The translations under genes and the position numbers were made by a program. Under the pieces are notes generated by a model, which saw nothing but the letters and a program-made list of their open reading frames with translations, ran no database searches and was not told the DNA's origin. From positions 3,378,501-3,442,500 of the forward strand of contig NZ_AP024469.1 of NCBI RefSeq assembly GCF_016865365.1: a DNA stretch of 64,000 nt. Reading direction: 5' to 3'. The DNA comes from Geobacter sp. SVR. Lineage in GTDB: Bacteria > Desulfobacterota > Desulfuromonadia > Geobacterales > Pseudopelobacteraceae. Of the stretch, positions 36,237 through 38,904 are shown piece by piece (the stretch's first letter is position 1; each line of letters starts with the position of its first letter).

Positions 36237-36524
36237 TCAGCAGCCTCCGCCCCCCGTTTTTACCAGTTTTCGTTCCCGTAGCCACTCGTTAATCATGCCC
36301 GAGGCGCAGCCGACCCCTGAATCCACGCTGATGGCCTTGACCGGACAGTTGAAGGCGCAGGCCCCGCACTCCATGCAGGCGTCACGGTCGGACAGCGTGA
36401 CCTTTTTCCCATCAGGAGAAAAGACCTGATGGGGACAGACCTGTAGACACCGGCCGCAACCGATGCAGAGCGAGGGATCGAAATCGAGCGTCACGACGTT
36501 TTCAAGATAGCGGAAGCCCTGCAT
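36237..36524 (-). CDS. hgcB: Mercury methylation ferredoxin HgcB
   Basis: A 95-residue ferredoxin with two 4Fe-4S motifs, CIGCGRCLQVCP (20-31) and CMECGACAFNCP (50-61), then the HgcB hallmark GVGCA with Cys73. The start RYLENVVTLDFD is also typical. HgcB is thought to reduce the corrinoid of HgcA and to handle Hg(II) during methylmercury formation. It lies 30 bases after hgcA on the same strand. Known HgcB proteins commonly end in a vicinal Cys pair; here the tail is GGGGC, with a single Cys95 followed directly by TGA. Confidence 0.93.
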   Translation of the reverse strand: MQGFRYLENVVTLDFDPSLCIGCGRCLQVCPHQVFSPDGKKVTLSDRDACMECGACAFNCPVKAISVDSGVGCASGMINEWLRERKLVKTGGGGC

Positions 36525-36554: not shown

Positions 36555-37577
36555 TCACATCAGCCTTCCGATCAACAGCAGCCCAATGCTGATCGCAACA
36601 GCACACCCCATGGCAGGCAGGGCCATGCTCATCTCTTTTCTGACGCCGGAACGGGAGGTATAGGGGGAGCAGCCGGTGAAGTTCAGGGTATAAAAAGCAC
36701 TGACTGCCGGCAGTGCCAGGAACAGGGCGGCAGTGACCGCAGCACTCCAGGCTGCTCCGCCGGCCAGGATGTAGAACAGGCAGGTCCAGAGCAGGCCGAT
36801 GACGGCACCTTTGACGGCAAAGCCGGGCCCCGGCAGCCAGGGGAGCAGCAGCGGCCCCAGCACGATGCCGCTCAGCACCGCCCCCAGGTAAGCGAGAAAC
36901 GCCGCCATGGCGGCAGCCGGACCACCCGCCACAAGTCCCGCCAGCAGCGTCACCCCGCCGATGGCGGCAATCGGGCGGAGAGCAAGCACCATCTCCACCG
37001 GAATCAGCACCAGCCGTTCACGGAGCGTGAAGCTCAACCGCCGCATGGCCGCGGTGGTGATCCTGCCGTTATCCAGGTACTCCGGCAGGTCCGAGGCCTT
37101 GATCGCGGCATATTCTACCGAGAATCCGCAGCGCTGCAGCACCTGGTGAGCCGCCACGCCGGGCGCCCCAAGAATCGGCAGGATCAGGCGGCGGTGGCTG
37201 ACGACCCGGGCCAGCCCCGTGGCATCGATCCGACGCACCAGTTCTCCGGTGCCGAAGGTGCCTTTGCCGGCCGCGCACCAGACATTGATGCCATAGGTCT
37301 CCAGCACCAGCAGCCAGACATGCCGCCCCGCCAGAGCCCGGCGAACGATGTCGTAGCTCATCTTGTAATCTGCGGTCACCAGCACCGGCGCGTCGCTGTC
37401 CGGTTGGCCGATGGCATACAGGCCCGGCGGCACCATGAAATTCATCCGGCCGATGCCCCAACGGGCCTTGCAGGCTCCGATGCGGTCAGCCGGGTCCAGT
37501 GTCGTGGAGATTCGCGCTACCGGTCCGGCTGCAGTCGCGAGCCATTCTTGGAAGCCGGGTACCTTTTCGGTGATCAC
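36555..37577 (-). CDS. hgcA: Mercury methylation corrinoid protein HgcA
   Basis: A 340-residue protein. The N-terminal cytosolic corrinoid-binding domain has the cap-helix signature NVWCAAGKGTF, with the cobalt-coordinating Cys101 in N98-K105. The C-terminal half holds about five membrane segments (from ~190), ending with the conserved NFTGCSPYTSRSGV block. HgcA transfers a methyl group from methylcobalamin to Hg(II), with HgcB as electron donor. The start is a GTG at 37577 with a weak ribosome site. A MarR-type gene lies upstream on the same strand, with a putative operator between them. The convergent cob operon makes corrinoid. Confidence 0.95.
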   Translation of the reverse strand: MITEKVPGFQEWLATAAGPVARISTTLDPADRIGACKARWGIGRMNFMVPPGLYAIGQPDSDAPVLVTADYKMSYDIVRRALAGRHVWLLVLETYGINVWCAAGKGTFGTGELVRRIDATGLARVVSHRRLILPILGAPGVAAHQVLQRCGFSVEYAAIKASDLPEYLDNGRITTAAMRRLSFTLRERLVLIPVEMVLALRPIAAIGGVTLLAGLVAGGPAAAMAAFLAYLGAVLSGIVLGPLLLPWLPGPGFAVKGAVIGLLWTCLFYILAGGAAWSAAVTAALFLALPAVSAFYTLNFTGCSPYTSRSGVRKEMSMALPAMGCAVAISIGLLLIGRLM

Positions 37578-37718
37578 TCCGCCGCCGGCGGAGACAGGCG
37601 GGCCTCAGCAGGGCGGCTTGTCCGAGCCGCCGGGAGCCGGCGGGCATGGACCATTCAGCCCCTTCTCACTCGCTGTACGGATACCCATGATTTTCAGAGG
37701 GCCGTTTTGTCCGTTCTT

Positions 37719-37735
37719 TACTTGCAACATGCAAC
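37719..37735 (-). promoter_or_regulatory. Putative MarR operator upstream of hgcA
   Basis: On the minus strand this reads GTTGCATGTTGCAAGTA. It matches the site at 38220-38236 at 14 of 17 positions, as GTTGCA-N3-TGCAAGTA, differing only in the three central bases. It lies in the 170-base gap between the MarR stop and hgcA, about 140 bases before the hgcA start. Confidence 0.6.
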
Positions 37736-37747
37736 CATCCTTCCCGA

Positions 37748-38188
37748 TCATGGACCGCTTGCGGCGCTGCTGGTGAGCGCTTCATTCAGCAATCCCAGCG
37801 ACCTGGTCACCGTCTCGCGCTCAAACGGCGTCAAGGCAGCGAACAGTGCTTCGATCTTTTTTTCCAGGTAAGAGTCGATCCTGACCAATACGTCTTCACC
37901 CGCTTGCGTGAGACTGAGCAGGCTTACCCGCCGGTCACCGGACGAAACCCGGCGCACGATCAGGCCTTTTTGTTCCAGCCCCTTCACCTGGCGGCTGAAG
38001 GTCGTGATATCCAGACCCAGCTCATCCGCCACCCGCTGCATCGCAGGGCTCCCCACCCTGCGCACTTCGGACAGGATGTGGCTTTGGGCCATTGAAAGCT
38101 GCTGGCCGCAGCATTCGTCGCAGCAGGTGGCGTTCAGCAGGCCGAAACGGCGGACAAAAATCTGCAGTTGCTCTTGCATTGATTCCAT
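37748..38188 (-). CDS. Cysteine-rich MarR family transcriptional regulator
   Basis: A 146-residue winged-helix regulator. The recognition region reads SPAMQRVADELGLDITTFSR and the wing has VRRVSSGDRRVSLLSLT, both typical of MarR. Near the N-terminus is CCDECCG (Cys22, 23, 26, 27), a CCxxCC cluster well suited to bind a soft metal or react with thiol stress. The ATG at 38188 has an AAGGAT site; the longer frame runs into the divergent gene and is rejected. It is upstream of hgcA on the same strand and divergent from a metal transporter, with a candidate operator on each side. Confidence 0.9.
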   Translation of the reverse strand: MESMQEQLQIFVRRFGLLNATCCDECCGQQLSMAQSHILSEVRRVGSPAMQRVADELGLDITTFSRQVKGLEQKGLIVRRVSSGDRRVSLLSLTQAGEDVLVRIDSYLEKKIEALFAALTPFERETVTRSLGLLNEALTSSAASGP

Positions 38189-38217
38189 TCTATCCTTTTT
38201 CTCTGAACCTACCACAT

Positions 38218-38236
38218 TAGTTGCAATTTGCAAGTA
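38218..38236. promoter_or_regulatory. Putative MarR operator between the regulator and the CDF transporter
   Basis: TAGTTGCAATTTGCAAGTA is an imperfect palindrome centred on T38227, with only one unmatched pair outside the centre. It lies in the 65-base divergent gap and overlaps the likely -35 region of the transporter gene. A closely similar site lies before hgcA. Confidence 0.65.
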
Positions 38237-38253: not shown

Positions 38254-38904
38254 ATGAATATGAGCGACCATCAACGCCATAAACTTCATGCCACAGCGCG
38301 CCTGCTGGCACTCTTCACCATCGGCTACAACCTCGTGGAGGGGCTGGTCTCCATCTGGCTGGGGCTGTCTGACGAAACCCTCTCCCTGTTCGGATTCGGC
38401 GTCGACTCCTTTATCGAAGTCGTTTCGGCCATCGGCGTCTGGCACATGCTGACCAGGATCGCCCGGAATTCCGGCGAAACCCGGGACGAATTCGAGCGGC
38501 GCGCCCTCAGGATAACCGGCGGTTCCTTCTATCTGCTGACAGTTGGCCTGATACTGACCGCGCTGACCAACATCTTTCAGCAGCATAGGCCGGAGACGAC
38601 CCGGTGGGGCATCGTCATTTCGCTGGCATCGATGTCGTTCATGTGGTTGCTTATCCGCCTCAAGACCCGGGTTGGCCGGGCCCTGGGTTCCCCTGCCATT
38701 CTGGCTGATGCGGCCTGTTCTCGGGCCTGCCTGCTGTTGTCGTTGGTCCTGCTGGCTGCCAGCATCGGCTACGAGCTGACCGGCATCGGCAATCTCGATG
38801 CCTTCGGGGCGATCCTGATCGCCTGGCTGACCTGGAAAGAAGGCAGGGAAGCCTTTGCCAAGGCACAGGGGCTCTCCTGCTCGTGCACCTGCGGGCATGG
38901 ATGA
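38254..38904 (+). CDS. Cation diffusion facilitator-like metal transporter with Cys/His tail
   Basis: A 216-residue membrane protein with five to six predicted segments. LFGFGVDSFIEVVSAIG and ILADAACSRACLLLSLVLL fit the paired metal-site helices of CDF-type transporters. It lacks the usual large cytoplasmic C-terminal domain and instead ends LSCSCTCGHG, a likely soft-metal ligand cluster. It probably exports a divalent metal across the inner membrane. Starts at 38254 or 38260 are both possible and neither has a clear ribosome site. It is divergent from the cysteine-rich MarR gene, whose putative operator covers its promoter. Confidence 0.82.
   Translation: MNMSDHQRHKLHATARLLALFTIGYNLVEGLVSIWLGLSDETLSLFGFGVDSFIEVVSAIGVWHMLTRIARNSGETRDEFERRALRITGGSFYLLTVGLILTALTNIFQQHRPETTRWGIVISLASMSFMWLLIRLKTRVGRALGSPAILADAACSRACLLLSLVLLAASIGYELTGIGNLDAFGAILIAWLTWKEGREAFAKAQGLSCSCTCGHG

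Follow-up and report, generated by a model that had tools for sequence, protein, structure and literature searches.

In a 64,000-nucleotide stretch of the Geobacter sp. SVR genome (the window), two copies of one operator-like 17-mer flank the gene of a Cys-rich MarR-family regulator, one of them (O1) at the putative promoter of marR itself and the other (O2) at the probable start of the mercury methylation gene hgcA. At the level of sequence, we observed both sites, their conservation and their co-occurrence with marR, as well as the same layout before arsM/arsP-type genes in Firmicutes, and the comparison gives good support to the view that O1 and O2 are real sites by which MarR would control both itself and hgcA.

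Two sites flanking the marR gene

The marR gene (37748..38188, minus strand) was assigned by Pfam PF01047 (39.9 bits, gathering score 24.6) and ends in a TGA at 37748–37750. The gene order on the minus strand is marR, hgcA and hgcB, the last encoding a ferredoxin (36237..36524, minus strand; NCBIfam NF040864, 131.3 bits, cut-off 99), and a gene for a CDF-type cation efflux protein (38254..38904, plus strand; Pfam PF01545, 41.8 bits, above the cut-off) diverges from marR. An AlphaFold model of MarR gave a MarR-like winged helix in the order H-H-H-H-beta-beta-H-H (mean pLDDT 86.8), and the protein is homologous to solved MarR chains, the closest of which is a weak match (best E 5e-13). It bears the motif CCDECCGQQ, with Cys at positions 22, 23, 26 and 27. 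This hgcA-adjacent regulator matched MarR and general winged-helix models only, with no ArsR-type domain among them. AdcR and ZitR, zinc-sensing metal sensors of the MarR family, are detectable but weak sequence matches to it; on the AdcR model NF038251 it scored 21.2 bits against a cut-off of 175 and is thus not a member.

In relatives, the C-terminal tail of MarR reads ...IACCK. A remnant of this tail, SGRMVACCK followed by TAA (37718..37747, minus strand; from sequence and alignment), lies in frame behind the marR TGA of the window, which comes ten codons ahead of the ancestral TAA. Selenocysteine at this TGA (37748) was considered and rejected; the codon is not conserved in relatives and is therefore treated as a truncating stop. 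The window MarR is without the C-terminal Cys-Cys tail, which counts against the mechanism proposed below.

O1 (GTTGCAATTTGCAAGTA, 38220..38236, plus strand) lies in the 65-bp intergenic region between the divergent marR and CDF genes, with 31 nt separating it from the start of marR and 17 nt from that of CDF, and O2 (GTTGCATGTTGCAAGTA, 37719..37735, minus strand) lies between marR and hgcA at a spacing of 501 bp from O1. Both are exact matches to GTTGCA-N3-TGCAAGTA (that is, GTTGCANNNTGCAAGTA), as the sequence-only reading had reported, and its observation that O1 sits in a near-perfect palindrome was likewise borne out (TTAGTTGCAATTTGCAAGTAA, in which 8/9 arm positions pair); the palindromy of O2 is confined to the core TTGCA-N3-TGCAA. 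A search for sigma-70-like promoters at O1 and O2 detected none at either site. Over the 4,717,360-base genome, the 17-mer has two exact matches, O1 and O2, both flanking marR, versus 0.02 expected from base composition. A genome scan allowing two mismatches returned 22 matches for the 17-mer pattern versus 5 for a reversed control pattern. Six other near-matches were inspected in their context, of which five lay inside ORFs (by mechanical ORF calls) and the sixth adjoined an unrelated MarR/MFS pair; for this reason a genome-wide regulon was rejected and no wider one is claimed.

Start codon of hgcA and its in-frame UGA

The hgcA frame extends upstream through a single in-frame TGA (37605–37607, minus strand) to two ATG codons, one at 37730, inside O2 and preceded at 7 nt by AAGGA, and an alternative at 37688; the former is probably the start. 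The read-through translation of the extended gene (36555..37730, minus strand) scored 442.5 bits on NCBIfam NF040863 (cut-off 275) and contains NVWCAAGKG, which includes the cap-helix motif NVWCAAGK. Since the frame reaches ATG 37730, O2 coincides with or directly adjoins the hgcA start instead of lying about 140 bp upstream, and it shares bases with both the codons of the former MarR tail and the probable initiation codon of hgcA. The earlier placement of O2 between marR and hgcA stands, but a simple ORF search places the start of hgcA too far downstream. The sequence-only reading had not picked up that O2 overlaps MarR tail codons and the hgcA start, nor the UGA in hgcA, nor the arsenic setting of this MarR family.

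The in-frame TGA is predicted to encode selenocysteine (PPC-U-GPP) from comparison across loci and from the presence of tRNA-Sec in the genome (77.8 bits, over the cut-off). At the CU position of HgcA, the codon of relatives is TGA in 87 loci and Cys in 14, and the same PPC-UGA-GPP (CUGPP) arrangement is found in them. A bacterial SECIS-like hairpin, CTCCGCC-GGC-GGCGGAG (37577..37593, minus strand), lies 11 nt after the TGA; TGA loci preserve this hairpin of 6–7 bp through compensating substitutions, and Cys loci have it in degraded form. Informative as this comparison across loci was, folding energy taken alone was not, the hairpin being not unusually stable compared to shuffles (z −0.45). 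HgcA here accordingly has the marks of a selenoprotein form, namely a UGA with Cys orthologues, a hairpin specific to the TGA form and a tRNA-Sec. In a 2026 review (PMC13188914), HgcA (NF040863) with the motif CU, the same as in the window HgcA, is tabulated with citation of Haft and Gwadz 2023. Because the HgcA selenoprotein has already been published, presenting the UGA as a new discovery was rejected and it is treated as a gene-model correction; beyond the published HgcA selenoproteins, the window adds only the corrected start and the hairpin comparison.

Conservation in hgcA loci and in the wider MarR family

The hgcA loci of 196 related genomes served as the comparison set. MarR orthologues (at least 50% identity) were found in about 37 of these genomes, and almost all of them are encoded immediately upstream of hgcA. 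They have C-C-(D/E)-x-C-C-G-E-Q in common where helix 1 ends, and in most of them the C-terminus is I/V-A-C-C-K/N. The O1 core TTGCA-N3-TGCAA is present in nearly all orthologues, 31–80 bp upstream of marR in two phyla, so placed that the conserved palindrome appears to belong to marR's own promoter, and the core is near-invariant in the O1 of 37 Geobacterales marR copies and the O2 of 36. O2 occurs upstream of hgcA in every marR-bearing locus of the 196 relatives (12–14 of 14 positions), and it is missing or degenerate in the hgcA loci without marR (60/64 score 10 or less of 14; the four exceptions score 11–12, one of them at a contig edge). Both cores match at no fewer than 9 of 10 positions in 26/29 hgcA loci versus 0.16–0.19% of control windows, and a 10/10 core match was found in 0/2469 control windows. 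Shared ancestry inflates these conservation counts. On the HgcA tree, the presence of marR changes about ten times, with three of the changes on well-supported branches; in these contrasts O2 follows the presence of marR in two to three of three and never the opposite way, which is consistent with the association, but a sign test cannot reach significance because only three independent contrasts are well supported. With two more distant hgcA-adjacent MarRs (L211 and L218), O2 is weak or absent. Among the outcomes that the sequence-only reading had named as speaking against it, two can be checked by computation, a motif frequent across the genome and one not conserved upstream of hgcA in relatives; neither was found, because the motif is rare genome-wide and is kept upstream of hgcA wherever the same marR is present.

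The simplest circuit drawn from the window, in which one regulator controls itself, metal export and mercury methylation, survived in part: autoregulation and hgcA control are well supported by the comparison as predictions, but the link to the CDF gene is peculiar to the window genome. Among the hgcA loci from the 196 relatives, CDF adjoins O1 in the window genome only, and CDF as a conserved circuit partner was rejected. In several Geobacterales hgcA loci, the gene divergent at O1 is acr3, arsC or arsR, so that metal export holds in kind and not for the CDF transporter. Separately, CDF homologues (62% and 75%) were seen near hgcA in L144 (L144:2152-2781) and L205, that of L144 directly upstream of hgcA and without marR.

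When 84,980 genomes were scanned with an alignment of the MarR orthologues, 73 loci came up, among them loci of Paenibacillus, Bacillus, Thermincola and Candidatus Formimonas. The Firmicutes homologues are 42–54% identical to MarR and have the same two-site layout, with O1 about 50–80 bp upstream of marR and O2 mostly 15–43 bp, typically about 25 bp, after the marR stop, in non-coding DNA; both cores reach at least 9/10 in 31/38 Firmicutes loci (control windows, 0.16–0.19%). The Firmicutes gene behind O2 is arsM, encoding arsenite methyltransferase, in 7 loci (above the curated cut-off), an ArsP_1 permease in 11 (174.8 bits), a flavoprotein distantly like ArsO in about 15 (match below the cut-off) and the glutathione synthetase GshF in 2 (above the curated cut-off). 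The link to arsenic rests on gene neighbourhood and homology. In the MarR tree, the Firmicutes copies stand apart from a cluster in which the hgcA-linked copies group with those that Geobacterales carry in ars operons or linked to MerB.

Other members of the family were observed beside the following genes. A MarR paralogue in the same genome (L169, G000:C1:196000-208000) lies in an arsA/arsD/thioredoxin/VKOR-DsbA/CcdA cluster with a near-copy of O2 behind it, and Geobacter sp. OR-1 also carries a MarR paralogue in an arsA/arsD/thioredoxin/CcdA operon. In one Geobacter MAG, a second MarR copy is followed by a MerB-like ORF that is interrupted by two in-frame TGAs (L170:5170-5950, the same region in L204; Pfam MerB 67.5 bits, above the cut-off), and these TGAs are near positions resembling the catalytic cysteines of MerB. 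The frames of AhpD-like small proteins (L170:5980-6290 and L171:6767-7063) end in CC followed by TGA, possibly a C-terminal selenocysteine. In Chengkuizengella (L254 and L258), a glutathione synthetase fusion, GshF, stands behind the same MarR and an O2-like site.

Proposed mechanism, alternatives and meaning

From these comparisons, we consider it quite probable that a MarR repressor binds O1 and O2, represses itself, hgcAB and the linked efflux gene, and is released by a thiol-seeking metal(loid). A homodimeric MarR-family repressor would bind TTGCA-N3-TGCAA at both sites, O1 being the presumed promoter of marR and, in the window genome, of the divergent CDF gene, and O2 the presumed hgcA start, and would thereby repress marR, hgcAB and the linked efflux gene. 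The metal(loid) would be bound by the Cys residues at the end of helix 1 (CC-x2-CC), together with the C-terminal Cys-Cys tail in most relatives, and its binding would release MarR from the DNA. We infer here that MarR binds the DNA and that it acts by repression, not activation, and likewise the inducer and the transcript start that O2 would govern; As(III) or an organoarsenical would be the likeliest inducer class, with Hg(II) a possible one. MexR, SlyA, MepR and OhrR are MarR-family repressors with palindromes of the TTGC-N-GCAA type, sharing with the present protein the MarR fold and a palindromic operator near their own promoter, whereas the conserved CC-x2-CC and the repetition of the site at the gene that follows are peculiar to the family described here.

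The reach of the two sites might instead be limited to marR and the divergent resistance gene, with hgcA lacking a promoter of its own and being co-transcribed from O1, and with O2 serving as an auxiliary roadblock or looping operator. The overlap of hgcA with the ancestral marR end suggests such a single operon, and the outcome of the sigma-70-like promoter search and the distance between the sites fit it as well; but O2 heads genes as unrelated as arsM, arsP, the flavoprotein gene and hgcA, a pattern suggestive of action on these genes, and we regard co-transcription from O1 as rather unlikely. It is less likely still that MarR is an OhrR-like sensor of redox or thiol stress and not of metalloids, its arsenic neighbours reflecting general thiol stress: thioredoxin, CcdA, AhpD-like and glutathione-synthesis (GshF) genes do stand beside some family members, but arsenic genes (arsM, arsP, acr3, arsC and arsA/arsD) account for many of the downstream or divergent partners, and CC-x2-CC is a motif typical of metal thiolate sites.

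That O2 is no operator, but was kept as the MarR tail I-A-C-C-K-stop and as the HgcA start M-L-Q-V in another frame, with its likeness to O1 incidental, appears very improbable. Most Geobacterales do translate the site in the marR frame, as IACCK/N-stop (the usual reading being ATT GCA TGT TGC AAG TAA), and the hgcA ATG lies inside it in many loci; since O2 is within marR coding sequence there, part of its conservation is at the protein level. However, the third position of the Ile codon is T in 24/24, the second Cys codon is TGC in 29/29, and so is the Ala codon GCA in 29/29, though across marR as a whole GCA makes up just 21% of Ala codons; the first Cys codon, at the operator centre, is TGT in 19 and TGC in 10. 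In addition, the site is read in a different frame in L090 and comes after the stop in L108 and the window, several loci keep it though hgcA starts elsewhere, the CC tail and O2 of Firmicutes are separate and both kept, and no control window gave the full core. Fixed synonymous positions, a variable centre and frame-changed or post-stop copies mean that coding alone is insufficient for O2, and a purely coding O2 is further disfavoured by its non-coding position in Firmicutes.

The proposed MarR control of hgcAB has a counterpart in Pseudodesulfovibrio mercurii ND132, for which arsenic-responsive, ArsR-like regulation of hgcAB is reported (Gionfriddo et al. 2023, as described in PMC10349881). 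A metalloregulator gene likewise lies upstream of hgcAB in ND132, but the regulator is ArsR/SmtB and not MarR, and the two operators, one overlapping the marR end and the hgcA start, set the present locus apart. Zhang et al. 2023 (PMC10349881) mention in one sentence that Geobacter daltonii and Dethiobacter alkaliphilus have MarR genes upstream of hgcA, which gives the same marR-hgcA adjacency without an operator, a family analysis or a link to arsM or arsP. Our literature search, which reached few subscription papers, found neither an operator or MarR circuit for hgcAB nor any account, operator studies included, of the same MarR family with arsM or arsP.

Mercury biogeochemistry has long asked what induces hgcAB and what purpose HgcAB serves; with a regulator and two sites defined and an inducer class predicted, hgcAB induction becomes testable. 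That the same regulator family stands before arsM/arsP-type genes points to a connection of mercury methylation with arsenic methylation that does not depend on the reported Pseudodesulfovibrio ArsR case. Somewhat short of an even chance, in our judgement, is the broader proposal that the hgcAB genes of Geobacterales belong to an organo-metalloid regulon, in which an arsenical-sensing MarR family, which ancestrally turned on arsM for arsenic methylation and arsP for organoarsenical export, was recruited for HgcAB with its operators included. If this is true, methylmercury formation would be induced by arsenicals or by a shared thiol-seeking signal, which would bear on the native role of HgcAB; and should hgcAB prove inducible by As(III) or methylarsenite, forecasts of methylmercury formation in sediments and rice paddies would have to take arsenic co-contamination into account.
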